A program made the translations under genes and the position numbers. From Spartinivicinus ruber (GTDB taxonomy: Bacteria > Pseudomonadota > Gammaproteobacteria > Pseudomonadales > Zooshikellaceae): a stretch of DNA of 64,000 nt. Below, piece after piece: positions 1 through 54,705 of this stretch. Below the pieces are notes generated by a model, which saw only the letters and a list, made by a program, of their open reading frames with translations, made no database searches and was not told where the DNA came from. The stretch covers positions 3,440,354 through 3,504,353 of the forward strand of contig NZ_CP048878.1 in assembly GCF_011009015.1 (NCBI RefSeq), given 5' to 3'. Positions within the stretch are counted from its first letter, which is position 1. The number at the start of each line of letters is the position of its first letter.

Positions 1-1
1 T

Positions 2-2308
2 TTCCGCAAAGCTTTTCCCCTCATGGCTAATAGACTGGGTATTGTTTACACCCCAGTTGAAGTAGTGGACTTCATTATTCATTCCGTTAATGACGTATTA
101 AAAGATGAGTTTGGGCTGACATTGGGCAGTAAAGGAGTCCATATACTTGATCCTTTTACCGGTACTGGTACTTTCATCACGCGTCTCATGCAATCCGGGC
201 TGATAACCCTTGAAGAGCTAGTTTACAAGTACACTCATGAGATACATGCCAACGAAATTGTGCTATTGGCCTATTATATTGCAGCCATTAACATTGAGGC
301 AGTCTATCACGATCTTTCAGCGGGCGAATACGTGCCTTTCAAGGGGATTTGCCTCACTGATACCTTTCACATGCATGAAAAAGAGGATTTAATATCCCAC
401 CTGATGGCTGATAACTCTGGTCGTCGTAAGCGTCAGAAGAAACTGGATATTAAGGTGATTATGAGTAATCCACCCTACTCCTCTGGTCAAAAAAGGCAGA
501 ATGATAATAATTCCAACATTCCTTATCATGAATTAGATGAAAGCATTCGATCGACTTATGCACAAAAATCAAGGTCAGGACTTCATAAATATTTATATGA
601 TAGTTACATCCGAGCAATCCGCTGGGGAAGTGACCGCTTAGGCAAGAGTGGTGTTATGGCCTATGTATCTGGTAATGCTTGGATAGAACGGTCCTTTGCA
701 GATGGAATGCGTAAATGCTTGGCTAATGAATTTACTAAGATCTACGTTTTTAATCTGCGCGGCGATATTCGAAAAAATATGTTAAGTAAGGGAAGAGCTA
801 AAGAAGGAAGTAACATCTTTGGTTCTTCAAGTATGACAGGCATAGTGATTACCTTGCTCATTAAAAACCCCAATGCGACTTCATTTGGAAACATCTTTTA
901 TTATGATATTGGGGAGGATCTAAATAGTAAAGAAAAATTAGCGCTCATAAGCAGTTTTGTCAGTATTAATGGTATTACTGAAAAAAAAGCTTGGCGAACT
1001 ATTACTCCAGATGACTATGGTGACTGGTTAAACCAGAGGGATAAAAGTTTTGACGAATTTATTTCCCTTGGAGATAAGAAAAATAAAACTACTGCTACAG
1101 TATTTGAAAACTATTCTCTAGGTGTTGTCACCAACCGTGATGCATGGTGTTATAATGCTTCAAAAAGCGAGTTATCCAGAAATATCAGTCGTATGATTAA
1201 TTATTATAACTCAGAAGTTGATCGTTACCTTGCTGAGACACTTGGTCAGAAACAGATTAAAATCGACGATTTTGTTCACAGTGATGCGAAGAAAATAAGC
1301 TGGTCCCGGTCACTAAAAGGAGATTTGAAAAAAAGAAAACTTTTAGAGTTTCAAGCAGAATGCCTAGTTCAAAGTTCCTATAGGCCTTTTAGCAAACAGT
1401 GGGTTTATTTTAACCGCCAATTAAATGAAATGGTTTGTCAAATACCTCAAATTTTTCCAAAGGCCGAGATTGATAACAGAGTGATTATTGTAACAGGAGT
1501 CGGTGCCAGATCGGGTTTTTCTGTACTGATGATAAATACGCTCCCAAATCTTCACACAATGGACACTGGTCAGTGTTTTCCCCTAAAACTCTACGAGCCT
1601 GTTAAAAAAAATGCAACTATCGATTTGGTTTCCAAAGAATCAAGTCTTCTTGATGAATACACAATGAGAGATGGTATTTCGGATGCAGGGCTTTCTCATT
1701 TCCAAATAGCTTATCCAGGCGAAAAAATTCGAAAAGAGGATATTTTTTATTACCTCTATGGACTGCTTCATTCCGAAGATTATTATAATCGTTATGCCAA
1801 CAATATTTCCAAGCAGTTACCTCGTATCCCCTGTGTGAAAAAAGCAGAAAATTTTTGGGCTTTTGCTAAAGCAGGAAAAGCTCTAGCTGAGCTACATGTT
1901 AACTATGAAACCGTTGAACCTTATCCTGTTGAATATAAAGGTGGGCGTTTGCTTTGGGATGAGTTAACTAAGGATGATTTCTGTGTGGACAAAAAATGGA
2001 AATTTGGTGGAACCTCTAGCAAGAAAGACAAATCTACGGTCATATATAATCATAAAATCACTATGACCAATATACCTGTTGAAGCCTATGACTACATTGT
2101 CAACGGCAAACCCGCTTTGGAGTGGGTCATGGAACGTCAGGTTGTGAAAAAAGATAAAAGTAGTGGTATTGTCAATGATGCTAACCGCTATGCAATTGAG
2201 ACTATGAAAGACCCCTCTTACCCCCTAAAGCTGTTTCAACGTATTATTACAGTAAGTTTACAAACACTGAGAATTGTTAAAAATCTACCGAGGTTAGATA
2301 TTAACTAG
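2..2308 (+). CDS. Type ISP restriction-modification enzyme, C-terminal part (methyltransferase and target recognition), cut by window edge
   Basis: The reading frame is open to the left edge, and the residues before the first ATG at 23 (FRKAFPL) continue the family pattern, so the gene starts outside the window. Numbering from that ATG, D43PFTGTGTF51 is the SAM-binding motif I of an N6-adenine methyltransferase and N149PPY152 is catalytic motif IV. The C-terminal half fits a target-recognition region, and the end (LFQRIITVSLQTLRIV) matches the normal C-terminus of type ISP (LlaGI-like) single-chain enzymes. In that family a nuclease and a helicase domain lie upstream. The enzyme would methylate host DNA and translocate on and cut unmodified phage DNA. 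It is the first gene of an apparent defence island. The domain call is strong; whether the missing N-terminus is intact cannot be seen. Confidence 0.88.
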   Translation, partial: FRKAFPLMANRLGIVYTPVEVVDFIIHSVNDVLKDEFGLTLGSKGVHILDPFTGTGTFITRLMQSGLITLEELVYKYTHEIHANEIVLLAYYIAAINIEAVYHDLSAGEYVPFKGICLTDTFHMHEKEDLISHLMADNSGRRKRQKKLDIKVIMSNPPYSSGQKRQNDNNSNIPYHELDESIRSTYAQKSRSGLHKYLYDSYIRAIRWGSDRLGKSGVMAYVSGNAWIERSFADGMRKCLANEFTKIYVFNLRGDIRKNMLSKGRAKEGSNIFGSSSMTGIVITLLIKNPNATSFGNIFYYDIGEDLNSKEKLALISSFVSINGITEKKAWRTITPDDYGDWLNQRDKSFDEFISLGDKKNKTTATVFENYSLGVVTNRDAWCYNASKSELSRNISRMINYYNSEVDRYLAETLGQKQIKIDDFVHSDAKKISWSRSLKGDLKKRKLLEFQAECLVQSSYRPFSKQWVYFNRQLNEMVCQIPQIFPKAEIDNRVIIVTGVGARSGFSVLMINTLPNLHTMDTGQCFPLKLYEPVKKNATIDLVSKESSLLDEYTMRDGISDAGLSHFQIAYPGEKIRKEDIFYYLYGLLHSEDYYNRYANNISKQLPRIPCVKKAENFWAFAKAGKALAELHVNYETVEPYPVEYKGGRLLWDELTKDDFCVDKKWKFGGTSSKKDKSTVIYNHKITMTNIPVEAYDYIVNGKPALEWVMERQVVKKDKSSGIVNDANRYAIETMKDPSYPLKLFQRIITVSLQTLRIVKNLPRLDIN

Positions 2309-2371
2309 TAACTCATGGGGCACAAAAGGGGGTAACACTGACTTGGTCAAAACTAACTCTTGTCGTTAGCC

Positions 2372-2664
2372 AAATAAGTATGTAACTGGCTTAGCCTGTA
2401 GCCCTTGTGCTGCCGTTTATATTAGTTCCGGTTACAAAAAATTAGTTTGTAACTAGATGAGCCTGCAAACCTGATTCTATCGTTAGTCGAGCTTAGAAAG
2501 GTGCCTCAGTCACAGCTGTCATTAAACAAATAAGTTTGTAACTAGAGCCGCCTATAACCCGCATTCTTCCGTTTACGCCAATAGCATTAACAAAAATAAG
2601 TTTGTAACCAACCAAAGATAATGACTAAAAAATACTCTGATTCATAACAAATAAGTTTGTAACT
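2372..2664 (+). repeat. Left-end cluster of five 16-bp direct repeats
   Basis: Copies of AAATAAGTTTGTAACT, with up to one mismatch, start at 2372, 2439, 2528, 2594 and 2649. Spacing is 67, 89, 66 and 55 bp. Parts of the spacers are also related, with GCCTRYAACC-like and CGTTWR-like pieces. They lie upstream of the LRR gene and could be transposase sites and/or part of its promoter. Confidence 0.85.
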
Positions 2665-2866
2665 AACAATTGCGATTTTTTCTTACAAAATCATTACTAA
2701 GGCAAAATTAGCAACTTAATGATTTCTAATGCCTTTTAGCAAAGGAAACCTTTCAATAAAAAAGACTTAATCTGTTGGGGTAATTAACATGATTGCTTAA
2801 TGGCTACACTGTAAGTGTACCCAAGTATAAGCAACTGGTAACTTACCTCAAAAAACGTATTGCATT

Positions 2867-5800
2867 ATGAACAGCAATGGACAACAAGAAGCCCTTAAAC
2901 GGATTGAAGCAGCAAGGCTCAATGAATCAACTGAGCTGGATTTATCCTCTCTAAATCTAGCAGAATTGCCACAAGCAGTTGCTGACCTGACCCAGTTAAC
3001 GGAGCTGGATTGCAGTGGTAACCAACTAAAAGACCTATCAGCCCTGGCCAACCTGACCCAATTAACTGAGCTAGTTTGCAGTGATAACCAACTAACCGAC
3101 TTGTCGGCCCTGGTCAACCTGACCCAATTAACTACGCTGGTTTGCAGTCGTAACCAACTAACCGACTTATCGGCCCTGGTCAATCTGACCCAATTAACTG
3201 AGCTGTATTGTAGTGATAACCCACTAACCGACCTATCAGGCCTGGCCAAGCTGATCCAATTAACTACGCTGGTTTGCAGTGGTAACCCACTAAACGACTT
3301 ATCGGCCCTGGTCAATCTGACCCAATTAACTGAGCTGGATTGTAGTGGTAACCAACTAACCGACCTATCAGGCCTGGCCAAGCTGATCCAATTAACTACG
3401 CTGAATTGCAGTTTTAACCAACTAACCGACTTATCGACCCTGGCCAAGCTGATCCAATTAACTACGCTGGATTGCAGTCGTAACCAACTAACCGACCTAT
3501 CAGGCCTGGCCAAGCTGATCCAATTAACTACGCTGGTTTGCAGTGGTAACCCACTAAACGACTTATCGGCCCTGGTCAATCTGACCCAATTAACTGAGCT
3601 GGATTGTAGTGGTAACCAACTAACCGACCTATCAGGCCTGGCCAAGCTGACCCAATTAACTACGCTGAATTGCAGTTTTAACCAACTAACCGACTTATCA
3701 GGCCTGGCCAAGCTGATCCAATTAACTACGCTGGGTTGCAGTGGTAACCAACTAAAAGACCTATCAGCCCTGGCCAACCTGACCCAATTAACTGAGCTAG
3801 TTTGCAGTGATAACCAACTAACCGACTTATCGGCCCTGGTCAACCTGACCCAATTAACTACGCTGGTTTGCAGTCGTAACCAACTAACCGACTTATCGGC
3901 CCTGGTCAATCTGACCCAATTAACTGAGCTGTATTGTAGTGGTAACCAACTAACCGACCTATCAGGCCTGGCCAAGCTGATCCAATTAACTACGCTGGAT
4001 TGCAGTCGTAACCAACTAACCGACCTATCAGGCCTGGCCAAGCTGATCCAATTAACTACGCTGGTTTGCAGTGGTAACCCACTAAACGACTTATCGGCCC
4101 TGGTCAATCTGACCCAATTAACTGAGCTGGATTGTAGTGGTAACCAACTAACCGACCTATCAGGCCTGGCCAAGCTGACCCAATTAACTACGCTGGATTG
4201 CAGTCATAATCAACTAACCAATTCCGTAGAAATACAAACAATTGTAGAAAATAACCCAACATTAATATCAGTCGATTTCAGATATAATCCTATTCAACGT
4301 ATTCCCAAGGAGTTTTTAGATTCGCTGAAGATTTTAAAAGGGTATTTTGCAGATCTAAAACAAGGTGCCATCGAAAACAAACAAATTAAATTATTATTAC
4401 TGGGTAATGGCCGAGTAGGTAAAACCACATTGGCTTATTGTTTAGAGCATCAGCAGGCTCCATTGGAAGGGACCGTTTTTGAGTCAACCCATGGGATTAT
4501 CGTTAAAGACATTACATTACCTTGTCATCAAGGGGGTAACCCCTGGCAATTACGGTTATGGGATTTTGCTGGCCAAGAGATTTATCACGCGACTCACCGA
4601 CTCTTTTATACCAGTAATGCGTTATATCTGGTGCTATGGGCAGAAGAAACGGATGAAATAGATACAGAACATGACCATGAGCTGATCTATTGGCTGGATT
4701 TAGTGCAACTCCATGCTGAAGATGCTGAAATTATAGTGATTAAAAATCAGCTTAATCGACGAAATGAGTTAGGCCTGCAAATTAATGAGCTTCAACAACC
4801 CCCCTATAACCACCTTCAGCATTATGGTATCAGTGCGAATGTGTATCAGGGTGTGCGAGTCGTAGAAGCCGCAATAGTCGATGCACTAGAGCAATTGGTA
4901 AACAACTTACCGACATTACCCATCACCTGGCATCAAGTAAGGGAAGCACTGGATAACACAAAGGACCACTATATTAGTTACGATGACTACTGTGCACTTT
5001 GTAAAGAGAATCAGGTAGGCCACCCTGATGTATTACTTGATTATCTTCATCAAACCGGCAGTTGCTTTTATTTCGGATCTGACTTTAACAATCATATTAT
5101 TCTCGATCAAAATTGGGCCATAAAAGCAATTTACCGTTTATTTGAAAAAGATAACAAAGGGAAAGGCCCAAGACACATCATCCACCAAAAACATGGTGAA
5201 ATTACAGGCAACGAAGCTTTAGCACTATTTAGCGGCTACAGCCAAAGTGAGGTGGAAATTTTCTTCAATTTCATGCGAGGGAGCCACCTGTGCTTTTCAC
5301 AGTCTCAATGGAGCGCATTTGGAAAGCAGCAGTTTGTCTTTCCTTCACTGTTACCCGAGTCGCACCCAGAGTTAGAGGCTTATACCTATAATGCAAAGTT
5401 TGAATATAAAATCACTTATCCTTGGTTGCACCGACTACTAGTTGAACGTTTCATTATTCATGCACGCCATTTAGCACCTAAAAAAACATGGTGGCGGAAT
5501 GGTATTGCTGTCATTGATAGAGAACTAAAAAGCGCAGCGGCATTGGTTGCAGATTCCGAAACCAAAAGCATCCATATTTATGCTTCAGGCCAGAATCCAA
5601 CAGCACTATTGAAACGCATTTTGAAGTCACTGGATGAGCTGAATCTTTGTCAGCCTATAGAACACCTAATAAAAGAGCAAGGTAGTGAATGGGTTGATAT
5701 AGAAGAAGTAAAGAAAGCACATCAGACTCGAACCCCATATGTTGTCGCTGAAACAGGAGAAAATGTGAGTGCAGTATCGTTATTCGATGCACTCGAATAT

Positions 5801-6241
5801 GAAGATGTGAAGCTTTTAAGTGAAGTACCAGAAACAACCTCAGAACAAATACAACATTTCACTTATTATTATATCAAGGAGGCAAAAAAAGTGGAAAATA
5901 CAGGAAATAAAGTAACTATAGAAAATAGTGAAAATATTAGGTTTATGATTAAAGGTGATATTAATATAGGGGCGAACAACTCAGATAAACAGGCAAAAAT
6001 CGGTAAACTTGAGGAGCTAATTAACTTGTTGCAAGCTGCTCCACCGACTACCAACTCTGAAGATGCCATACGGTATTTAAAAAATACCGTCGATGAAGTA
6101 AGTAAATCTGAGCCGAATAAAACCCTAGTTGAAACCTATCTAAATACGGCTTCAGGTTTTTTGAATATGATCGACAAAGGTTCTGAGCTATTTAAAAAAG
6201 GGAAAGAACTGTTTGAAAGTTTTGGTTTTTCCCTTGGGTAA
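2867..6241 (+). CDS. Leucine-rich-repeat Roc (Ras-of-complex) GTPase, Roco-like, possible defence or signalling protein
   Basis: A short N-terminal helix is followed by 18 near-identical 22-residue leucine-rich repeats (residues 41-436) and a degenerate nineteenth. A Roc GTPase domain comes next, with P-loop G513NGRVGKT520 and switch II D566FAGQE571. The usual NKxD base-recognition motif appears only as NQLN. A COR-like region of about 300 residues follows. The tail (about 1010-1124) has an asparagine/glycine-rich stretch and then predicted helices, as in some bacterial effector or oligomerisation tails. Bacterial Roco proteins are GTP-switched dimers whose LRRs sense a ligand. No good Shine-Dalgarno sequence precedes the ATG. 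The gene is alone between inverted end repeats and lies between restriction and SIR2 genes, so a defence role is plausible but not shown. Confidence 0.85.
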   Translation: MNSNGQQEALKRIEAARLNESTELDLSSLNLAELPQAVADLTQLTELDCSGNQLKDLSALANLTQLTELVCSDNQLTDLSALVNLTQLTTLVCSRNQLTDLSALVNLTQLTELYCSDNPLTDLSGLAKLIQLTTLVCSGNPLNDLSALVNLTQLTELDCSGNQLTDLSGLAKLIQLTTLNCSFNQLTDLSTLAKLIQLTTLDCSRNQLTDLSGLAKLIQLTTLVCSGNPLNDLSALVNLTQLTELDCSGNQLTDLSGLAKLTQLTTLNCSFNQLTDLSGLAKLIQLTTLGCSGNQLKDLSALANLTQLTELVCSDNQLTDLSALVNLTQLTTLVCSRNQLTDLSALVNLTQLTELYCSGNQLTDLSGLAKLIQLTTLDCSRNQLTDLSGLAKLIQLTTLVCSGNPLNDLSALVNLTQLTELDCSGNQLTDLSGLAKLTQLTTLDCSHNQLTNSVEIQTIVENNPTLISVDFRYNPIQRIPKEFLDSLKILKGYFADLKQGAIENKQIKLLLLGNGRVGKTTLAYCLEHQQAPLEGTVFESTHGIIVKDITLPCHQGGNPWQLRLWDFAGQEIYHATHRLFYTSNALYLVLWAEETDEIDTEHDHELIYWLDLVQLHAEDAEIIVIKNQLNRRNELGLQINELQQPPYNHLQHYGISANVYQGVRVVEAAIVDALEQLVNNLPTLPITWHQVREALDNTKDHYISYDDYCALCKENQVGHPDVLLDYLHQTGSCFYFGSDFNNHIILDQNWAIKAIYRLFEKDNKGKGPRHIIHQKHGEITGNEALALFSGYSQSEVEIFFNFMRGSHLCFSQSQWSAFGKQQFVFPSLLPESHPELEAYTYNAKFEYKITYPWLHRLLVERFIIHARHLAPKKTWWRNGIAVIDRELKSAAALVADSETKSIHIYASGQNPTALLKRILKSLDELNLCQPIEHLIKEQGSEWVDIEEVKKAHQTRTPYVVAETGENVSAVSLFDALEYEDVKLLSEVPETTSEQIQHFTYYYIKEAKKVENTGNKVTIENSENIRFMIKGDINIGANNSDKQAKIGKLEELINLLQAAPPTTNSEDAIRYLKNTVDEVSKSEPNKTLVETYLNTASGFLNMIDKGSELFKKGKELFESFGFSLG
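2987..4174 (+). repeat. 66-bp coding tandem repeat array (18 LRR units) with block duplications
   Basis: Eighteen 66-bp units encode the 22-residue LRRs. Units 12-15 closely repeat units 1-4 (offset 11 units). Units 16-18 repeat 8-10. Units 9-11 repeat 5-7. The near-identity of whole blocks shows recent expansion by unequal exchange or slippage, so copy number may differ between strains. Because 66 is a multiple of three, a long spurious reading frame also exists on the opposite strand. Confidence 0.93.
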
Positions 6242-6358
6242 TGGAATTGCCAATAGTCGGTTTGATCAGCTGCCTCCTTAATCCTGTTCCATATGAGTCA
6301 ACTTGACTGAAACAGCTGAGTTGACCACAGGGTTTTGCTGTCGCTATTTTGGCCGCTT

Positions 6359-6482
6359 AGTTACAAACATATTTGTTATGGTTACAGACTTATTTATCCA
6401 GTTACAAACTTATTTGTTTACTGACAACAGCAAATGAAGCTTTGTTAGTTACAGACTTACTTGTTTGGTTACAAACTGATTT
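6359..6482 (-). repeat. Right-end cluster of five 16-bp repeats in inverted orientation
   Basis: The reverse complement of the left-end core occurs at 6359, 6380, 6400, 6447 and 6467, with spacings of 21, 20, 47 and 20 bp. Matches are 14-16 of 16 bases. The close, mostly 20-bp phasing against the loose left array resembles the asymmetric ends of Tn7-type elements. Confidence 0.85.
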
Positions 6483-6564
6483 GTTCACCGACATTTACTG
6501 AGTAATATCGGTCTGCTTGATGGAAAGCAGTTGGTTGAGTTTGCGGCTCACACCAGATTCGTTC

Positions 6565-9500
6565 CTATTGAACCCCAGATTTCCGTAAGTATTCTCTTAA
6601 GCGTCTGTATCGGTCATCTTGCGCTAGCAGAGGTGCAGTTTGCACTATCTCATCTAAGCATTGTCCCAACTCCTGAGTTACCCATTGTTGCTGGTCTGAA
6701 ATCACAATATCTAGCAGATCTAGTGAGTCCAAAGGAAATTTTTTGCACAATTCTGATTCTTTCAGGAGGTTTAAGGTGTAATAAGGATGTTCAATTGGTT
6801 TCAGCCAGTCTTTCATAGCAGCCAAAGCGGACGGAAACTCAGAGCGAGCTGCAATGGTAAGCCTGGTTAAGGATTCGGCAATACGCGGTGTAGCTAGATC
6901 TCGGGACTTGGGCCAAACATTTTGCCAGAACGGCTTTACACGGTTTCTCCAATAATCCTCACTCTGTTCTCCAGCCCCATCTAGAGCCTGAAAGAGTGCC
7001 TGAGCTGCTTCCTCTAACCCTTCTTGAGGAAGCTCCCCAATCGCTGAACGAAAATCATCCACGGTATAACCTTCTAGCGAATCGAGCGCTGCGTAAGTAA
7101 GAAAAGCTGCGAATTGCTGACGGTGCTCGCCTAGCTCAATATAGTGTTTCACACACTCTAAAAACTCCGTTTTGAGAGCAGTCAATAAGGGCTGGTACAA
7201 ACGTGGCGACCACAAAAAACCTTCCCACACAGCTTTTGCTTCTTTCGGATTGTTCCAACTATACAAAGGCAACAGATATTGTTCAGTCCACGTTTGATCC
7301 ACACGGTAGAGTGCAATTAATCGCGAGCTTAGCAGAACCCGCCCATGACGGAACCGGTCCACATTTACATCGCAGATTTCCGTAAAGAATTGCTTAATGT
7401 CAGCGGGAAGATGATCCCCATCATTAGGGCTCTGTTTGAGCCAAAAATTGATTAATGCATGTGTGGTATGCCCAACGGGATGATTGATAGCTTCATTGAC
7501 AGGGTCAACTGGCTCACCATTGAGAAGTGCTTCTAAAGGCAGTTCAAGAACTCGACGGCACAAGTCCAGAAGTATATCTTCTTGCTGATTGACTGACTTC
7601 GAAACGATCTCAATCCAGCTCGTTACACTATGGACAATCACCTGAAGGGTGTCGTCTGGCATCCTCTTTACTAGCAAAGCAGCATGTCGCCATGATCGCA
7701 ACACCATATCTTCTTCACTCCAAACTTGCAGGGCCACACACCATCGGTCGGTTGGCCAAATGCTAGCCTTAGCTAGATCACATAGCGCTAACAAGCTGTG
7801 AAAGAAGCGGGTGCGGCAGACATCATGCCATGTGTCTTTATAGATACTTTGCTGCTCGGGTAGTTGCTTTTTAAGCCACTGAACGAGTTCATGCCGCTTT
7901 CGAGGTGCAATATCAACATCCCGACTGTCTTCATAGCCTGGATCGCCAGTTCCACTCATCCAATGGGAAAACTCGTCCCGTTCGTTAGCTGCCAGCTGCC
8001 ATTTTGGATATGCATGTGACAACTCTTGTAAGCGAACTTGGGCGGTAGGGCTTAGAGATATCCCAGAGGAATCCAGTTTGGATAAATGAAGCCATACTGA
8101 TCGATCCACCAGCTCTTGCCAACGATCTGGTTCTAGATCTTCTCGATACATCTCGCGCGGTGGTCCAGCCAAGATGACAGCCTCCAAACGTTCCTGAGTC
8201 GCCCCTGCTAATCGGCACCCTTGCAGAACGAACAACCTGAACACCTCCCGCCCCGTATCAGTGGACCATAGCCACCAAGCACCATCAGCTAACAGCCAAT
8301 CCACCCACTGATCGGGATCAATGCAATCCTCCTGGCTAGCTGCAAACAAGGCTAGACGTTTGAAGGTGAGATACGGCAACTCGAACCAAGCCTGAGCAAT
8401 CCTCGTCGCACGAACACGGTCATTGCTATAAACAGCTAGCCACGCATCACGCAGCAATTCAATTAACCTTACCCAATCGCGAAAGCTTCTGTTCTGCCAG
8501 TGTGGAGTAATGGAGGGAAGATCCCAGAAAGATCGGTCGCTGCGCTCATCAGCTCCACCCAGCTCATGCATCAGGTCCAGCGCATCACGCAGCAGTTGCT
8601 GAAAGTCCTCTAGCAGTTGTGGTAGTGCAGATGTCCAACAGTGCTCACTGGTAAGTTCATGTAGAACCGCATACACATCACCAGCTGCAAGCTTTACTTC
8701 CCAGTCCACCAGTTGACACAGGCGAGTAGCTTGAGCTGCGCTCTCTTCCTGGTCACTCCAACGAAACGGCCTTTTCAAAGCCACCTTTGGCGTGAGCAGT
8801 TCGCGCAACTCCAAACGCAGCATGATGGTCAGGCCCTCCCGCTTCAGCCGATCTTTCCAGCGATAGAGATTGAATTCACGCAACGGTGATTTTACCCGGC
8901 TGCTAAGCAGCAGACGCCAAAGTTTACGCATCAAAGGGCTAGGAATTGCATTGGGTGCCTGTGCGTGGATATCATTCAGCTCGGTGGTCTTGCCGTCATG
9001 CTCAAGTAAGGCATATTCTTTGAGCTTGTTCTCGATCAATTGCGGCCAAGGATCATGTAACTGGCCGCCACGTTTTGCTACCCAGATGATTAACTCAGGG
9101 TCATTCAGATGACGCGTTAACCAGCGGGCTAGATGGTACATAACCTTGTCCCACTGACTGCTATTGATACCATTGGAGGCCAGCAACATTAGTGGTGCAC
9201 GGTCATAGGGTGCAAACCGACGAATCAGGCTGAAGCGCAATTCAGCATCTACCTTGTCCCGTGGCGGCACGTCAAAGCGGGCCAAATCACTGTGCTGAAA
9301 GCGTTCGTCTATAAAGGCCTCTAACAACCACTCCAACGACGGGACAGGGTTGAAATCAGCAAAGCGTTTGGCCGGCAACCCAGAATTGTCCGACAAAGCC
9401 CACAACATCCGACCTACGAAATCATCTTGCTGTGTGCTCACTGATGGCTGTGCTAGTGCATGGCTTACAACGATACGTTCCTTGCCCAGTATGCCATCTC

Positions 9501-10383
9501 GGTAGATTTCCGCCCATGCCTGCAAGGTTCGGTGCAATGCCGAATGGTCATGGCTACTGGCAGGCACATCATAAAGGATGGGCGTAACTCCCTTAGCCTC
9601 CCACTCAATGGTCTTGCAGTGTTCCTGCCCCGGTGCACAATCGCCCAAAGCCCAGGCTTGCGGTGTAATTTCCCCCAGCATTCGGTCAGCAGCCAACGCA
9701 TCCATCATGTATCGCAAGACAGGATCGTTAATACTGTAGCCAACAAAGCAGACCACATAGTTGCGGAACAGCTCACTCACGAAGCGTGCTGCCCAGCGTT
9801 CAGTAAGATAAGCCAAACCGAAATCACCGCTGGTGAATACCAGACTGTTCAGATCCGTATCTTCAGCCTTTCTTGGCAAGAGACCATGCAGGTAGACCAA
9901 CCCATCCCATCGACTGTTCTTCGGGATCGGAAGCATCGGCGCGGCATAAGCCCTGAATGTTTGGCCAATGCGTTTTGCCGCCGTATGGAACACACGGTCA
10001 AAGTTGGTGGTGACCAGCCGCAGTGCACCCTCACGGCTGCGCGCTAGTCGCAACAATGCCGCATGTGTATCAGTGGCACCCTTGCGGCGCAATTTAGGTT
10101 TGAGAGCCTGCTCCAGAGCGCGGCGAACTGCCAGACGCTGCCCTGGGAGTCGTCGTTCCAGCAAGTCGAGCGTGGCATCATACTGCTCGCGGTCTAGTGC
10201 CTCTTGCTCAATATCTGAGGGTGTCGTGCCACACAACCGATAGATTTCTCTTACAAGCCCATAGAAGCCAGGTAGGCCAGCAGGATAGGAAATGCCCGCA
10301 CCGCAGAAAAACACCACGCGCCCCTCTTCATGCGCCTGCAAAAGCTCGTCGGGAATGTCAGGGCCGTGGGCTATGAATTGCAT
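6565..10383 (-). CDS. SIR2-domain NADase with very long C-terminal region, probable anti-phage defence protein
   Basis: The N-terminal 300 residues form a SIR2-like fold: G28AGISYPAG36, T125TNFD129, Y164LHG167, a GYSINDP motif at 215-221. The asparagine (N127) and histidine (H166) equivalent to the catalytic pair of defence NADases such as ThsA and DSR proteins are present. The remaining roughly 970 residues are helical, with many WxxW- and LLxxL-rich stretches, and have no domain I can name. They probably form the sensing and oligomerisation part, as in defence-associated sirtuins that deplete NAD+ on phage detection. The gene looks GC-richer than its neighbours, hinting at separate acquisition. 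No partner gene is adjacent; it ends towards the right end of the LRR element. SIR2 assignment is strong; the defence function is inferred from family and context. Confidence 0.82.
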   Translation of the reverse strand: MQFIAHGPDIPDELLQAHEEGRVVFFCGAGISYPAGLPGFYGLVREIYRLCGTTPSDIEQEALDREQYDATLDLLERRLPGQRLAVRRALEQALKPKLRRKGATDTHAALLRLARSREGALRLVTTNFDRVFHTAAKRIGQTFRAYAAPMLPIPKNSRWDGLVYLHGLLPRKAEDTDLNSLVFTSGDFGLAYLTERWAARFVSELFRNYVVCFVGYSINDPVLRYMMDALAADRMLGEITPQAWALGDCAPGQEHCKTIEWEAKGVTPILYDVPASSHDHSALHRTLQAWAEIYRDGILGKERIVVSHALAQPSVSTQQDDFVGRMLWALSDNSGLPAKRFADFNPVPSLEWLLEAFIDERFQHSDLARFDVPPRDKVDAELRFSLIRRFAPYDRAPLMLLASNGINSSQWDKVMYHLARWLTRHLNDPELIIWVAKRGGQLHDPWPQLIENKLKEYALLEHDGKTTELNDIHAQAPNAIPSPLMRKLWRLLLSSRVKSPLREFNLYRWKDRLKREGLTIMLRLELRELLTPKVALKRPFRWSDQEESAAQATRLCQLVDWEVKLAAGDVYAVLHELTSEHCWTSALPQLLEDFQQLLRDALDLMHELGGADERSDRSFWDLPSITPHWQNRSFRDWVRLIELLRDAWLAVYSNDRVRATRIAQAWFELPYLTFKRLALFAASQEDCIDPDQWVDWLLADGAWWLWSTDTGREVFRLFVLQGCRLAGATQERLEAVILAGPPREMYREDLEPDRWQELVDRSVWLHLSKLDSSGISLSPTAQVRLQELSHAYPKWQLAANERDEFSHWMSGTGDPGYEDSRDVDIAPRKRHELVQWLKKQLPEQQSIYKDTWHDVCRTRFFHSLLALCDLAKASIWPTDRWCVALQVWSEEDMVLRSWRHAALLVKRMPDDTLQVIVHSVTSWIEIVSKSVNQQEDILLDLCRRVLELPLEALLNGEPVDPVNEAINHPVGHTTHALINFWLKQSPNDGDHLPADIKQFFTEICDVNVDRFRHGRVLLSSRLIALYRVDQTWTEQYLLPLYSWNNPKEAKAVWEGFLWSPRLYQPLLTALKTEFLECVKHYIELGEHRQQFAAFLTYAALDSLEGYTVDDFRSAIGELPQEGLEEAAQALFQALDGAGEQSEDYWRNRVKPFWQNVWPKSRDLATPRIAESLTRLTIAARSEFPSALAAMKDWLKPIEHPYYTLNLLKESELCKKFPLDSLDLLDIVISDQQQWVTQELGQCLDEIVQTAPLLAQDDRYRRLREYLRKSGVQ

Positions 10384-10464: not shown

Positions 10465-10782
10465 CTAGCTTTGCTGCCCACAATTTTTTGAAGCGAAATC
10501 AAAAGGCGTAAATTCGTCTAGATTCACTAATTTCTTGACTTGCCATAAGTTGTAATTGTTTTGCATTTGTAGCCAGCTTTCAGGTGACCGGCCAAGCACT
10601 TTAGACAGCTTCAAGGCCATCGCTGGGGAAACGTCAGACTTTCCATTTAATAGACGACTGATGATGCTTGAGCTGACATGAAGATGTTTGGCTAATTCAT
10701 TAGAACCAATATCAAATTCGTCTAGATACACCCTTTTAATAAATTCACCAGGGTGGATAGGATTATGTTGTTGAATAGCCAT
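10465..10782 (-). CDS. HigA-family antitoxin / XRE transcriptional regulator
   Basis: This 105-residue protein begins with the family signature HPGEFIKRVYL, followed by a helix-turn-helix (ELAKHLHVSSSIISRLLNG) and MALKLSKVLGRSPESWLQMQNNYNLW, all typical of HigA antitoxins that bind both their toxin and their own operator. It lies 3 bp downstream of a 62-codon reading frame, so the two are probably translated together. That partner does not look like a HigB ribonuclease, so this may be an orphan antitoxin or half of a different module. Recognition of the HigA/VapI family is confident; toxin-antitoxin function here is not. Confidence 0.85.
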   Translation of the reverse strand: MAIQQHNPIHPGEFIKRVYLDEFDIGSNELAKHLHVSSSIISRLLNGKSDVSPAMALKLSKVLGRSPESWLQMQNNYNLWQVKKLVNLDEFTPFDFASKNCGQQS

Positions 10783-10785
10783 ATT

Positions 10786-10974
10786 TTAACACCAATCGGT
10801 CAGTGTACCTTTGTGTTCTAGATCAGCACGAATATCACTATAGTGTGGGACAGCTATGCGCTTAATTCCTAATGACAGGTGTCCGTAGATCATTCTTGTC
10901 CTAACAAACTTCCTATCCTCAGACAGTATATGGCACCCTATGATATTTTCAGTTCTGTAAGTTCTCTCTGTCAA
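10786..10974 (-). CDS. Small hypothetical protein upstream of the HigA-like gene
   Basis: A 62-codon reading frame in the position normally held by higB, ending 3 bp before the antitoxin start. The product is basic in its centre (KFVRTRMIYGH..LGIKRIAVPHYSDIRADL) and ends HKGTLTDWC. I do not recognise it. It lacks the C-terminal features of HigB/RelE toxins. It may be a novel small toxin, a truncated gene or a chance frame; close coupling to higA is the only argument for translation. Confidence 0.4.
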   Translation of the reverse strand: MTERTYRTENIIGCHILSEDRKFVRTRMIYGHLSLGIKRIAVPHYSDIRADLEHKGTLTDWC

Positions 10975-11057
10975 CCACCCAGTTTATAATGGAATTAAAA
11001 GAGCTAAAAAATTACGCAACCGCTATAGTCTGATGGCTAAACTTCTTGAGCATTATT

Positions 11058-11414
11058 ATGGATACCCCAAAAGCATACTTTGTTATACGAAGTGATTTAG
11101 AACTTAATCCTGCCAAGCTTGCTGTGCAGATAGGGCATGGTACAGACATGATATGGCAGCACCAAATGGTAGACCAAGCTTCATTCAAAACTTGGTTAAG
11201 CCCCGAACAAGGTGATAGGCGAAAAATTGTACTAAAGGTAAATTCATTTGAAAAATTAACCAGCTTAAAAGAAAAACTAATTAGCAATGGTTTCTATTGC
11301 TTTGATATTGTTGATTCAGGCTATAACTTTGTCGAAGCCTATACTCAAACGGGTATCGTAATTTTTCCAACGGCAGTAGAAAGCAAAGTAATTAAACGAT
11401 TGAGGATATTATAA
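11058..11414 (+). CDS. Pth2-like (archaeal/eukaryotic-type) peptidyl-tRNA hydrolase family protein
   Basis: A 118-residue protein with the Pth2 core order: strand AYFVIRSDLELNPAKLAVQIGHG, then RRKIVLKVNSFEKLTSLKEKL, then a C-terminal strand GIVIFPTAVESKVIKRL. The QxGHG segment corresponds to the conserved Q-C/I-(S/G)-H-A region of Pth2. Pth2 enzymes release peptidyl groups from tRNA, but bacterial stand-alone relatives are poorly studied and the essential bacterial Pth is a different fold, so the true substrate is unknown. The ATG at 11058 is preferred over an upstream TTG at 11046 because the conserved fold begins right after it. It is a single gene in accessory DNA next to antitoxin and topoisomerase genes. 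Confidence 0.65.
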   Translation: MDTPKAYFVIRSDLELNPAKLAVQIGHGTDMIWQHQMVDQASFKTWLSPEQGDRRKIVLKVNSFEKLTSLKEKLISNGFYCFDIVDSGYNFVEAYTQTGIVIFPTAVESKVIKRLRIL

Positions 11415-11529
11415 ATTTATTTTTAAGCAAAGATACGACATACTTTATGTAGTATCTAGCACATTGATTAAGAGGATCGTTAAAATAGTATGAACAGACT
11501 AAAATACTATAGGTTGAGTACAGAGACTT

Positions 11530-14818: not shown

Positions 14819-15849
14819 CCTAATTATCATCATACCTAAGCTATATTTAGTAGCTTACCTGGTAGTGGAGGTGTTCTCAGTGCTACAAATGCTAGCCTAG
14901 GAATAAATTCTACTAAGCTAAATCTTCGATTAAATCGATACTGAAATTCAGCAAGATAACGTTGTGCATATTTAGCGCGAATAGCATGATAAGTACTACG
15001 TAAAGCACTTTTTAAGTTTCCAAGGATGGTGTTAACCCAATAAAATTCAGGTTCCTCTACTGATGCACGACCACCACCGCATACAATTTTATCATGAAGA
15101 CAACCTGCTTCTATGACACCATTAAAACAGGCCAGTCCATCGGAGATTACGGTACTGCCCTTGGCCAAATTCTGCCTACTCCAAGCCGTTATCTCTTCTT
15201 TATTAAACCCTTTTAAAATGCTCAGTTTAATTCGTGTCGGTTGACCTTGTTTTGTTGTTTCTACGGCTGCTACAAAAGGTATTTTCCCATCTGCTCCCCT
15301 ACCTCTTTTGCAACCTGTACGCTCACCACCAAGATAGGCATCATCAATTTCAATAAAACCCGACAATTGCTTGGTGCCTTCTCTTTCTTGCATCACTTTC
15401 ATGAGCTTATGTTTCATTCTCCAGGCAGCTTGATAGGAAATACCTAAATGGCGATGTAATTCTATGGCTGATATACCTTTTTTGTCTTGGGAGATCAAAT
15501 ACATCCCTTGGAACCAAGTCTTTAATGGTAATTTGGTTGATTCAAAGATAGTACCTGCAGTTACAGATGTTTGCTGGTGACATTTATAGCACTGCTGAAG
15601 CTTTCTAGTAGTGAGTTGACAGCATTTGTCGTATCCACAATTGGGGCACTGAAAACCTTCTGGCCATCGCAATTTGTATAAGGTATTAAAGCATTGTTCT
15701 TCTGTACCATATTGTTTGAGAAACTCGTTTAAACTCAGGCCTTTTTGAAATTGAACTTTGTTGATAGCCATTATTTATACCTTCTCAATTAAGTTTCCAT
15801 GCTGTTCAAATATACAGCAGTTAATGGCTTAGGTATAGTGATAATTAGG
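14819..15849 (-). mobile_element. IS1595-family insertion sequence, copy A (1031 bp, intact)
   Basis: Terminal inverted repeats begin CCTAATTATCAT at 14819 and, on the other strand from 15849, CCTAATTATCAC. The 8-bp target duplication AAATATTA flanks it (14811-14818 and 15850-15857), so this copy arrived by simple transposition. It lies between the aminotransferase and MFS genes. Confidence 0.96.
14836..15771 (-). CDS. IS1595-family transposase, copy A
   Basis: The 311-residue transposase has an N-terminal zinc ribbon (CPNCGYDKC...CYKCHQQ, about residues 40-65). It continues with the ISXO2-like catalytic domain, with acidic residues in GFIEIDDAYLGGER and VISDGLACF and the third-site region WVNTILGNLKSAL. 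It moves the element by cut-and-paste or copying with 8-bp duplications. Its sequence is identical to the transposases at 18413-19348 and 44741-45676, so all three copies are recent and probably active. Confidence 0.95.
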   Translation of the reverse strand: MAINKVQFQKGLSLNEFLKQYGTEEQCFNTLYKLRWPEGFQCPNCGYDKCCQLTTRKLQQCYKCHQQTSVTAGTIFESTKLPLKTWFQGMYLISQDKKGISAIELHRHLGISYQAAWRMKHKLMKVMQEREGTKQLSGFIEIDDAYLGGERTGCKRGRGADGKIPFVAAVETTKQGQPTRIKLSILKGFNKEEITAWSRQNLAKGSTVISDGLACFNGVIEAGCLHDKIVCGGGRASVEEPEFYWVNTILGNLKSALRSTYHAIRAKYAQRYLAEFQYRFNRRFSLVEFIPRLAFVALRTPPLPGKLLNIA

Positions 15850-18395: not shown

Positions 18396-19426
18396 CCTAA
18401 TTATCATCATACCTAAGCTATATTTAGTAGCTTACCTGGTAGTGGAGGTGTTCTCAGTGCTACAAATGCTAGCCTAGGAATAAATTCTACTAAGCTAAAT
18501 CTTCGATTAAATCGATACTGAAATTCAGCAAGATAACGTTGTGCATATTTAGCGCGAATAGCATGATAAGTACTACGTAAAGCACTTTTTAAGTTTCCAA
18601 GGATGGTGTTAACCCAATAAAATTCAGGTTCCTCTACTGATGCACGACCACCACCGCATACAATTTTATCATGAAGACAACCTGCTTCTATGACACCATT
18701 AAAACAGGCCAGTCCATCGGAGATTACGGTACTGCCCTTGGCCAAATTCTGCCTACTCCAAGCCGTTATCTCTTCTTTATTAAACCCTTTTAAAATGCTC
18801 AGTTTAATTCGTGTCGGTTGACCTTGTTTTGTTGTTTCTACGGCTGCTACAAAAGGTATTTTCCCATCTGCTCCCCTACCTCTTTTGCAACCTGTACGCT
18901 CACCACCAAGATAGGCATCATCAATTTCAATAAAACCCGACAATTGCTTGGTGCCTTCTCTTTCTTGCATCACTTTCATGAGCTTATGTTTCATTCTCCA
19001 GGCAGCTTGATAGGAAATACCTAAATGGCGATGTAATTCTATGGCTGATATACCTTTTTTGTCTTGGGAGATCAAATACATCCCTTGGAACCAAGTCTTT
19101 AATGGTAATTTGGTTGATTCAAAGATAGTACCTGCAGTTACAGATGTTTGCTGGTGACATTTATAGCACTGCTGAAGCTTTCTAGTAGTGAGTTGACAGC
19201 ATTTGTCGTATCCACAATTGGGGCACTGAAAACCTTCTGGCCATCGCAATTTGTATAAGGTATTAAAGCATTGTTCTTCTGTACCATATTGTTTGAGAAA
19301 CTCGTTTAAACTCAGGCCTTTTTGAAATTGAACTTTGTTGATAGCCATTATTTATACCTTCTCAATTAAGTTTCCATGCTGTTCAAATATACAGCAGTTA
19401 ATGGCTTAGGTATAGTGATAATTAGG
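18396..19426 (-). mobile_element. IS1595-family insertion sequence, copy B (1031 bp, no target duplication)
   Basis: Same ends and length as copy A, but the flanking octamers differ (TACTTTTT before, AAAACTTT after). Lack of a duplication implies that DNA beside this copy was deleted or exchanged, for example by recombination between IS copies. One side abuts a lone thioesterase, the other an IS982 remnant. Confidence 0.95.
18413..19348 (-). CDS. IS1595-family transposase, copy B
   Basis: A 311-residue transposase identical in sequence to copies A and C, with zinc ribbon and ISXO2-like catalytic domain. The open frame is intact, so this copy could still move even though its flanks show a rearrangement. 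It reads leftward, towards the thioesterase gene. Confidence 0.95.
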   Translation of the reverse strand: MAINKVQFQKGLSLNEFLKQYGTEEQCFNTLYKLRWPEGFQCPNCGYDKCCQLTTRKLQQCYKCHQQTSVTAGTIFESTKLPLKTWFQGMYLISQDKKGISAIELHRHLGISYQAAWRMKHKLMKVMQEREGTKQLSGFIEIDDAYLGGERTGCKRGRGADGKIPFVAAVETTKQGQPTRIKLSILKGFNKEEITAWSRQNLAKGSTVISDGLACFNGVIEAGCLHDKIVCGGGRASVEEPEFYWVNTILGNLKSALRSTYHAIRAKYAQRYLAEFQYRFNRRFSLVEFIPRLAFVALRTPPLPGKLLNIA

Positions 19427-44662: not shown

Positions 44663-45693
44663 CCTAATTATCACTATACCTAAGCCATTAACTGCTGTAT
44701 ATTTGAACAGCATGGAAACTTAATTGAGAAGGTATAAATAATGGCTATCAACAAAGTTCAATTTCAAAAAGGCCTGAGTTTAAACGAGTTTCTCAAACAA
44801 TATGGTACAGAAGAACAATGCTTTAATACCTTATACAAATTGCGATGGCCAGAAGGTTTTCAGTGCCCCAATTGTGGATACGACAAATGCTGTCAACTCA
44901 CTACTAGAAAGCTTCAGCAGTGCTATAAATGTCACCAGCAAACATCTGTAACTGCAGGTACTATCTTTGAATCAACCAAATTACCATTAAAGACTTGGTT
45001 CCAAGGGATGTATTTGATCTCCCAAGACAAAAAAGGTATATCAGCCATAGAATTACATCGCCATTTAGGTATTTCCTATCAAGCTGCCTGGAGAATGAAA
45101 CATAAGCTCATGAAAGTGATGCAAGAAAGAGAAGGCACCAAGCAATTGTCGGGTTTTATTGAAATTGATGATGCCTATCTTGGTGGTGAGCGTACAGGTT
45201 GCAAAAGAGGTAGGGGAGCAGATGGGAAAATACCTTTTGTAGCAGCCGTAGAAACAACAAAACAAGGTCAACCGACACGAATTAAACTGAGCATTTTAAA
45301 AGGGTTTAATAAAGAAGAGATAACGGCTTGGAGTAGGCAGAATTTGGCCAAGGGCAGTACCGTAATCTCCGATGGACTGGCCTGTTTTAATGGTGTCATA
45401 GAAGCAGGTTGTCTTCATGATAAAATTGTATGCGGTGGTGGTCGTGCATCAGTAGAGGAACCTGAATTTTATTGGGTTAACACCATCCTTGGAAACTTAA
45501 AAAGTGCTTTACGTAGTACTTATCATGCTATTCGCGCTAAATATGCACAACGTTATCTTGCTGAATTTCAGTATCGATTTAATCGAAGATTTAGCTTAGT
45601 AGAATTTATTCCTAGGCTAGCATTTGTAGCACTGAGAACACCTCCACTACCAGGTAAGCTACTAAATATAGCTTAGGTATGATGATAATTAGG
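44663..45693 (+). mobile_element. IS1595-family insertion sequence, copy C (1031 bp, intact)
   Basis: Ends as in copies A and B but in the opposite orientation. The 8-bp target duplication TAACTTTT (44655-44662 and 45694-45701) is perfect. It is inserted 17 bp past the HEAT-NACHT stop, so no gene is broken, though it may separate that gene from its terminator. Confidence 0.96.
44741..45676 (+). CDS. IS1595-family transposase, copy C
   Basis: A 311-residue transposase identical to those of copies A and B: zinc ribbon near residues 40-65, ISXO2-like DDE-type domain with GFIEIDDAYLGGER and VISDGLACF. An intact frame with perfect flanking duplication indicates a recent insertion. Confidence 0.95.
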   Translation: MAINKVQFQKGLSLNEFLKQYGTEEQCFNTLYKLRWPEGFQCPNCGYDKCCQLTTRKLQQCYKCHQQTSVTAGTIFESTKLPLKTWFQGMYLISQDKKGISAIELHRHLGISYQAAWRMKHKLMKVMQEREGTKQLSGFIEIDDAYLGGERTGCKRGRGADGKIPFVAAVETTKQGQPTRIKLSILKGFNKEEITAWSRQNLAKGSTVISDGLACFNGVIEAGCLHDKIVCGGGRASVEEPEFYWVNTILGNLKSALRSTYHAIRAKYAQRYLAEFQYRFNRRFSLVEFIPRLAFVALRTPPLPGKLLNIA

Positions 45694-53685: not shown

Positions 53686-54705
53686 TTACTGTCGCTTTGT
53701 ATTGTTACAGACTACTTCCGGACACTGGTTAAACTGATCTTTGACAGTGAGAGCCTGAATTTCTTGCTGAGTAGCCAGTAACTGCTGATTATCCGGTTGA
53801 ACTGCCAGTCCACATGCTAGAGCTTGTTGTGCAGCCTGCACACAACCACCTGTTGCCAGTGCATAACCCAGATTATTCCAGCCCACGATATGATGAGGAT
53901 GATTCGCCACCAACTCCATTAATGCATCCACTGATTGTTGCCACTGTTGCTTCGCATAATAGGCATTGCCCAGTCCCAGTAACGCAATAGGATGATGCTG
54001 CCAGGTTTTTAATGCAGTTTGATAGGCCATAATCGCTACCTGGCGCTGGTTCACTTGCTCCAAAGCCTGTGCAGCTTTGAGATAGGACAACGGATTAGCT
54101 GTTGCAGGCAAGCGATCAGGGGGCAATGGCACCAACCCCCAATACTGGGCCCTCTCCCAAGTTTTACCAAAGAGTGCCAAGGGCATTTTATAACGTTTGT
54201 GTTGCTCTGATCTCAGCACCACTTGCTTAGTTGACCACTCAAAGCCTACCACAACTGCATAATGCCATTGTGGATACCAGCTGTAGCCTAAATTCAGCAT
54301 CACCAATACCGGATGCCCAGCGGTAATTTCAGCCATCAACTGTTGTAGAGAGCCTTTCATTTCATAGGCCAATAGACCTCGCTGACGTGTAGCCGCCACC
54401 AGCTCAACTTGAAAACTACCCTGCTTGGCCGGTGTGTAGACTTCATCCACCAGATCATCAGGTTCTATAGGCACCTGCCAATAACTCAATACAGTCGCTA
54501 GTGCAGCAGGACCACAGTGATATTCTGTTTGAGGAAAAAAAGGTACCTGCTCCAGCTCAACTTGATAGAAACTATCCGCTGGAAGTGCATCCATTTGCTT
54601 AATAAAAGCATTACTAGTACAGCCAGTTATCCCCAACAAAATAAAAATGCCCAGCACATGCCGGGCATTTTGAAAGGGTAGTAATAGTTGTAAAAAGTTT
54701 GTCAC
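53686..54705 (-). CDS. PA2778-family lipoprotein, C39-like cysteine peptidase with TPR repeats
   Basis: A 339-residue lipoprotein: lipobox GITGC with C29. It has a peptidase C39-like domain with C64 in YHCGPAALATVL and H148 in WHYAVVVGF, and the conserved P-Q-T-E-Y before the cysteine. From about 205 to 320 come TPR-type helices (ALLGLGNAYYAKQQWQQSVDALMEL, IVGWNNLGYALATGG by parts). It matches the Pseudomonas PA2778 family and is followed upstream by a PA2779-type gene, the standard pairing. The start codon is GTG. It may cleave or bind an envelope peptide; the substrate is unknown. Confidence 0.88.
   Translation of the reverse strand: MTNFLQLLLPFQNARHVLGIFILLGITGCTSNAFIKQMDALPADSFYQVELEQVPFFPQTEYHCGPAALATVLSYWQVPIEPDDLVDEVYTPAKQGSFQVELVAATRQRGLLAYEMKGSLQQLMAEITAGHPVLVMLNLGYSWYPQWHYAVVVGFEWSTKQVVLRSEQHKRYKMPLALFGKTWERAQYWGLVPLPPDRLPATANPLSYLKAAQALEQVNQRQVAIMAYQTALKTWQHHPIALLGLGNAYYAKQQWQQSVDALMELVANHPHHIVGWNNLGYALATGGCVQAAQQALACGLAVQPDNQQLLATQQEIQALTVKDQFNQCPEVVCNNTKRQ

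Follow-up and report, generated by a model that had tools for sequence, protein, structure and literature searches.

A single-gene element with Tn7-type ends nested in a gene-less relative within a defence island of Spartinivicinus ruber

Tn7-like transposons with cargo are already known in thousands and are main carriers of defence genes. Small units that lack a transposase and are moved in trans by a related enzyme are also known, among them prokaryotic miniature inverted-repeat transposable elements (MITEs), mobile insertion cassettes and Tn3-derived inverted-repeat miniature elements (TIMEs; PMC4133298, which concerns Tn3, going by its title). The element described here resembles both kinds. 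It occupies positions 2517-6426 of a 64,000-nucleotide stretch of the 6.69-Mb Spartinivicinus ruber genome (contig NZ_CP048878.1; hereafter the window), is 3,910 bp long, has ends of the Tn7 type and carries one gene, for a Roco protein with leucine-rich repeats (LRRs). It lies inside an older, gene-less element with related ends. All coordinates are positions in the window unless a contig label is given.

In Tn7, the right end holds four partly overlapping TnsB sites and the left end three well-separated ones, and TnsA cuts the 5' ends, according to the portions of a published account used here (PMC13370975). Benler et al. (2021, PMC8649781) delineated 6,549 Tn7-like transposons and describe, in the sections drawn on, defence and other genes lying between arrays of TnsB sites, much as the Roco gene lies here. 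In those same sections, borders were sought only within 125 kb of a tnsB gene; elements without tnsB would therefore not have been looked for as such. The parts of a MITE review consulted (PMC10969869) mention Tn7 twice, once on target choice and once in a reference, and those of a paper on Paracoccus (PMC3281130) treat transposase-less units driven by insertion sequences (IS). Among the matches listed from the PubMed Central literature, subscription journals lying outside this scope, no title or start of an abstract described a natural gene-less or single-gene Tn7-type element.

The ends of the S. ruber element are marked by ten 16-bp repeats that face inward, five forward at 2372-2664 and five reverse at 6359-6482, where the initial annotation had placed them. 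As it had also reported, TGTCG precedes the outermost copy at both ends, at an offset of 9 bp; before the third copy at either end, TGTCA stands at the same offset. The third copies open the inner element. Its left end (2517-2664, plus strand) consists of the tip TGTCATTAA and three loosely spaced TnsB-like sites, 18-mers starting at 2526, 2592 and 2647, and its right end (6359-6426, minus strand) of the tip TGTCAGTAA and three tightly spaced sites with 5' ends at 6417, 6397 and 6376. Measured from the tips, the sites begin at 9, 75 and 130 bp on the left and at 9, 29 and 50 bp on the right. A listing of the site flanks gives ACAGC immediately outside both tips (2512-2516 and 6427-6431), a perfect 5-bp target-site duplication. 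Such a match has a chance of 1 in 1024 if the pair of tips is preset and of about 1 in 128 over the eight pairings of two left with four right positions.

Tn7 on plasmid R721 (NC_002525) was taken as the yardstick for ends. Its 18-bp sites (ACAAnnnAGTnnnnAACT, some differing by a base) start 9 bp from the tip, at 9, 73 and 129 bp on the left and at 9, 29, 50 and 70 bp on the right, and it is flanked by the duplication GTGCG. The inner element shares with it the TGT...ACA tips, the 18-bp sites and their 9-bp start, the three loose left sites, the tightly packed right sites and the 5-bp duplication, with offsets within 0-2 bp of those of Tn7. The features by which Tn7-like ends are recognized (TGT/ACA tips at a fixed distance from the sites, the site layout and the 5-bp duplication) are present in the inner pair. 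Unlike Tn7, which encodes TnsA-E and has four right sites, the inner element holds one Roco gene and three right sites and is not at glmS. Away from attTn7, it is inserted in the gene-less element, which has a type IIG restriction-modification gene on one side and a Dsr1 gene on the other.

The repeats are, judged from their sequence and arrangement, Tn7-type (TnsB-like) transposase sites, of the form AACAAATAAGTTTGTAACT. Allowing up to 3 mismatches, the window contains 11 matches where 2.2 are expected, a count reached by none of 100 shuffles; the eleventh, at 54691, is a 3-mismatch stray outside the array. Consistent with the suggestion of Tn7-type ends in the initial annotation, a matrix built solely from the seven TnsB sites of Tn7 (R721) placed eight of the ten copies among its 25 best-scoring positions out of about 128,000 (ranks 1, 2, 3, 6, 7, 8, 16 and 25), with rank 4 at an unrelated place, 23706. 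When three sites of a Tn7-like element resident at glmS in the same genome were added, the number rose to nine of ten. TGTC stands at the -9 position of four of the ten sites, which are the outermost sites of each nested end; TGT is also found at -9 of two inner copies in the tiled right arrays (6464 and 6397), where it is part of the TGTAAC of the adjoining site. Among the 27-mers of the window, the outer right tip scores best against Tn7's left tip (19/27). Tn5053/Tn402 elements, also named in the initial annotation, carry a tniA gene and have terminal repeats of 25 bp with TniA sites of 19 bp; an end of the Tn5053 type was rejected on geometry alone.

The two outermost copies on each side belong to the gene-less outer element. 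Its left part (2361-2516, plus strand) has the tip TGTCGTTAG and sites at 2370 and 2437 (offsets 9 and 76), and its right part (6432-6493, minus strand) the tip TGTCGGTGA and sites with 5' ends at 6484 and 6464 (offsets 9 and 29). Once the inner element and one ACAGC are removed, the two parts join to 218 bp. MITEs are short and gene-less, with inverted ends and a target duplication; the outer element is short and gene-less and has inverted ends and a homologue in a sister species (G100), but no duplication at its borders. The initial annotation had described the copies as loose on the left and tight on the right, which holds for the left array and for the 20-21 bp steps on the right; it had passed over a step of 47 bp from the second to the third copy on the right, where two stacked ends meet. 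When the left ends of the two elements are aligned between their first two sites, 26 of 49 columns match; one of 500 shuffles scored as high. Therefore, both elements are members of one family.

The homologous copy in the sister species, on contig G100:C42 at about 15513-15701, contains no gene. Window positions 2400-2508 match it (C42:15547-15653) at 81% over 109 bp, and it aligns across the insertion point without a gap, with 54 of 67 bases identical against a maximum of 36 in 200 shuffles. Over 90 bases of the junction, 56 identities are obtained when one copy of ACAGC is kept, compared with 46 when both or neither are kept. The gapless alignment with a single copy of the duplication supports both borders of the inner element, and the G100 copy is in effect its empty site. 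The initial annotation had regarded repeats at this locus in relatives without the LRR gene as evidence against a mobile cassette. Such repeats do exist for the outer element, and the copy that has them is at the same time the empty site of the inner one.

The end family extends to another genus of the same order. A looser tip pattern, allowing 3 mismatches, was run over 390 genomes of the order and matched five of them; a reversed control gave one match in each of three genomes. Clean tip pairs were found in S. ruber and in genomes G193 and G098, which have an identical 193-bp gene-less element (G193:C23:640-832, locus L100; G098:C23:32796-32988, locus L101). Positions 6445-6493 of the window align with it at 86%. 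Like the inner element, the 193-bp element has sites of this family, left offsets of 9 and 75 and a 5-bp duplication, here ACTGT on both sides; unlike it, the 193-bp element is gene-less and lies within a ynfA-family gene, which it interrupts. Its flanks match in G193 and G098, and the two copies therefore stem from one inherited insertion. Among 31 plasmid records with similarity, two were aligned from the matches listed: an unannotated stretch from Photobacterium and an annotated ynfA from Psychrobacter, both unbroken and collinear once the element and one 5-bp copy are left out. Thus, gene-less units with this end family insert with a 5-bp duplication. In the sister genome G034, a tip match at C1:2526141 stood alone, with no partner end within about 600 bp; as the reversed control also matched three genomes once each, single matches of this kind can be due to chance.

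The one gene of the inner element (2867-6241, plus strand) encodes 1124 amino acids (aa) with LRRs followed by the Roc GTPase, COR-A and COR-B domains (Pfam LRR_4 5e-93, Roc 8e-17, COR-A 1e-24, COR-B 2e-10). Roc, COR-A and COR-B exceed the Pfam cut-offs and stand in the order that defines bacterial Roco proteins. The LRR-coding region (2987-4219) is built from 18.7 repeats of a 66-bp unit with 85% matches, and the number of repeats is likely prone to change. In PADLOC, no described defence family matched the greater part of the protein, and there was one weak C-terminal match, to the candidate PDC-M14B (residues 1029-1119, 4e-6). A defence role may be predicted from this match, the neighbourhood and the domain type. 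In the sections used here, an analysis of bacterial death-like domains (PMC8195603) treats LRR-bearing STAND NTPases as proteins of cell death and immunity and names Roco only in a reference. Similarity to internalin and XopAC concerns the LRRs, lies far below the cut-offs and was disregarded. Relatives of the Roco protein were found in one of 56 genomes (S. ruber itself) and in eight of 369 genomes of the class including S. ruber, the others at 26-42% identity. At 12 loci of such relatives in other genomes (2.7-4.5 kb each), a search with one site form returned one single match and no array. Distant Roco genes were also found in 12 plasmid records.

An autonomous Tn7-like transposon holds tnsB inside its ends, with tnsA/tnsC and a tnsD/TniQ selector; the inner element does not. 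With ten TnsA-E proteins of Tn7 and of the glmS resident as queries, no Tns similarity was detected anywhere in the window at E 0.1, in line with the initial description of one cargo gene and no transposase. The S. ruber genome as a whole has one TnsB-like (PF09299) and one TniQ-like match, about 2.9 Mb from the window, both in a five-gene set beside glmS (recognized by eye) whose products are 43, 38, 39, 32 and 23% identical to TnsA-E of Tn7. This resident element spans 26,273 bp and, together with a companion, occupies G000:C1:6290944-6317570 (loci L035 and L037) in S. ruber. The companion is a 349-bp gene-less element that adjoins the resident on the glmS side and has both ends and no reading frame above 34 codons; ATAGT is found at all three borders. 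The same genome thus also has a Tn7-type unit without genes whose sites are of another type. The left sites lie at 9, 75 and 130 bp in the resident and at 9, 77 and 132 bp in the companion, and the right end of the resident shows only one clear site. The inner element resembles the resident in its left offsets and 5-bp duplication, and the resident has a miniature form in the same genome; the resident differs in its sites (ACAATAAAGTATCATACT), its tips (TGTAGATTG/TGTAGAAAG) and its full tns set. Two facing sites of the resident type, at C1:5783294 and C1:5783473 (L072), lack TGT tips and are perhaps a decayed miniature; they were not counted as an element.

Given the above, the locus is very probably a nested Tn7-type insertion that is now without tns genes. 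The best reading is that the inner element is a cargo-bearing, non-autonomous Tn7-like element moved in trans, and that it probably lacked tns genes already when it moved. This order of events is favoured by the compact layout, in which about 200 bp and 117 bp separate the cargo gene from the site arrays, and by the gene-less relatives. If a full Tn7-like transposon had inserted and then lost its tns genes in place, the anatomy would be the same and the history another. That the element is single-copy and that no helper with window sites was found would fit such decay. However, neither the element nor the rest of the window has a tns remnant, the gene and ends fit closely together, and the end family occurs elsewhere as compact gene-less elements inserted with a duplication, so that decay of an autonomous transposon is a possible but unlikely history.

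It is doubtful that the resident glmS element moved the inner element in spite of the different sites. It has the only tnsABCDE set seen in the genome, and the adjoining 349-bp gene-less element with its site type indicates that it probably acted in trans, but 6 of 18 site bases and the tips differ and the inner element is not at glmS. The resident is accordingly an unlikely helper. The initial annotation had taken 2361-6493 as a single element, moved as one unit with five sites per end. TGTCG at both outer tips, at the proper 9-bp offset, agrees with that proposal, which is nevertheless very improbable: in the sister species the outer element occurs with the inner part absent, contradicting a single unit in the empty-site alignment, and the 47-bp step marks the border of stacked ends. 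The 5-bp duplication reported as missing is indeed absent at the outer tips, but at the inner tips it is perfect; the gene-bearing element is therefore 2517-6426, nested in an older gene-less one. Least of all are the repeats expected to be ordinary regulator-binding sites around a gene, with no transposon involved, for which their intergenic position on either side of one gene could be cited and which we consider next to negligible. They face inward on both sides with the geometry of Tn7, have a duplication, an empty site and gene-less relatives in another genus, and form a cluster that occurs once in the genome. A 15-mer at up to 2 mismatches matched the genome 47 times, ten times in the array and otherwise as scattered singles, against 62 times for the reversed control; the repeat is therefore no genome-wide regulator site, a pattern that the initial annotation had held would speak against a transposon.

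Several observations weigh against a non-autonomous Tn7-like element moved in trans. The inner element is single-copy, and movement after the loss of tns is therefore not seen directly. No tns-bearing element with sites of the window type, which the initial annotation had proposed to seek, was found in S. ruber or its relatives, in searches of limited sensitivity: the resident sites differ at 6 of 18 bases, no TnsB match was obtained in G100 or G034, both sister genomes, and PF09299 was found in six of ten chosen genomes, at nine loci from genomes of genus g55, none of which has the window array. TnsB relatives occur in eight of 369 genomes of the class including S. ruber, and the other seven have no array of the Tn7 form at 1 mismatch; resident-type sites were seen in two of four PF09299 loci checked for direct repeats. 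As for the ends, the position ranked fifth by the Tn7 matrix (2756) sits within the inner element yet outside the ten copies, and the 27-bp tips alone are not unique, with other 27-mers of the window scoring 17 or 18 of 27 against Tn7-type tips. The outer pair lacks a 5-bp duplication (flanks ACTCT and TTTAC); in the G100 copy, too, no duplication is visible, and its left tip is decayed. Furthermore, nesting within the same family conflicts with the target immunity of Tn7. Insertion into a relative despite immunity would be accounted for if the end sites had diverged or another helper had acted.

The two insertions at this locus very probably came about in steps. A gene-less miniature (218 bp when joined) first occupied the interval that separates the type IIG restriction-modification gene from Dsr1. 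Another member of the end family, with complete ends around the LRR-Roc-COR gene, then inserted into the miniature by a reaction of the Tn7 type and duplicated ACAGC. TnsA-, TnsB- and TnsC-like proteins of matching site specificity were most likely supplied in trans. By analogy with Tn7 and from general knowledge, a TnsB-like protein would bind the three widely spaced sites on the left and the three closely spaced ones on the right and pair the ends, which would be cut beside the TGT/ACA tips with TnsA and joined across a 5-bp stagger under the control of TnsC. Were a helper with matching sites to be present, the element may still be mobile.

Small transposase-less units, too, may be spread by Tn7-type machinery, as suggested by this nested one-gene element with complete ends and no tns gene in a defence island and by the gene-less relative in another genus, which inserted with a 5-bp duplication. 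This offers a simple route by which islands could acquire single defence-type genes, and a rule for searches that do not depend on a transposase gene: a site 9 bp from the tip, site arrays and a 5-bp duplication. More tentatively, Tn7-type ends might define a wider class of transposase-less cassettes with a single defence gene, which would be moved in trans by diverged TnsABC and land on older miniatures in defence islands, such nesting building up the islands. If true, this wider class of cassettes would be invisible to surveys anchored on tnsB.

The exact array pattern was found in whole genomes only in S. ruber, one of 293 in the order and one of 369 in the class. Such patterns are insensitive, as they missed the family members in G100, G193 and G098 although these are among the 293 genomes; therefore, absence in exact-pattern searches of the order, the class, genome contigs and viral contigs says little. 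In genome contigs the array pattern gave six stretches. One (L044) is a tandem repeat of 20 bp within a type VI secretion locus, next to a gene that looks tssK-like by eye, and the other five had the matched pair and at most a few scattered singles at 4 mismatches. Two viral contigs (L063:887-921 and L064:3215-3249) contain iteron-like GTTACAAACT repeats, which were not considered related to transposon ends, and three further pattern searches of viral contigs gave zero matches each. With the ends as blastn queries, one run against plasmids gave no match and another three at E 0.4, and phages gave one at E 0.4; the 193-bp element had no match in plasmids.

The neighbouring genes place the locus among defence systems. 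On the left, a type IIG restriction-modification gene whose frame begins before the window is present with its C-terminal part (1-2308, plus strand; PADLOC REase_MTase_IIG, E 0, protein 1-760 against 876-1640 of the 1646 positions of the model). On the right is a full-length Dsr1-type SIR2 defence gene (6565-10383, minus strand; PADLOC Dsr1, E 0, protein 1-1271 against model 1-1275). With these two genes on its flanks, the locus is a defence island. The G100 contig with the gene-less copy, C42, also has DNA like window 10486-11416 (85% over 937 bp), and the neighbourhood is therefore probably a variable spot shared by the two species. Contig C42 carries two tips of the end family, 9.1 kb apart, one of which is the right tip of the gene-less copy. 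The second, at C42:6594-6669 (L097), forms a small inverted repeat with no visible duplication, about 300 bp from the genes resembling window 10486-11416. Between it and the copy ending at 15701 are 9 kb with other genes, which by eye look kinase-, ATPase- and SIS-like. Elsewhere in the window are three identical 311-aa transposase-like reading frames (14836-15771, 18413-19348 and 44741-45676), which we take to be IS1595-like.

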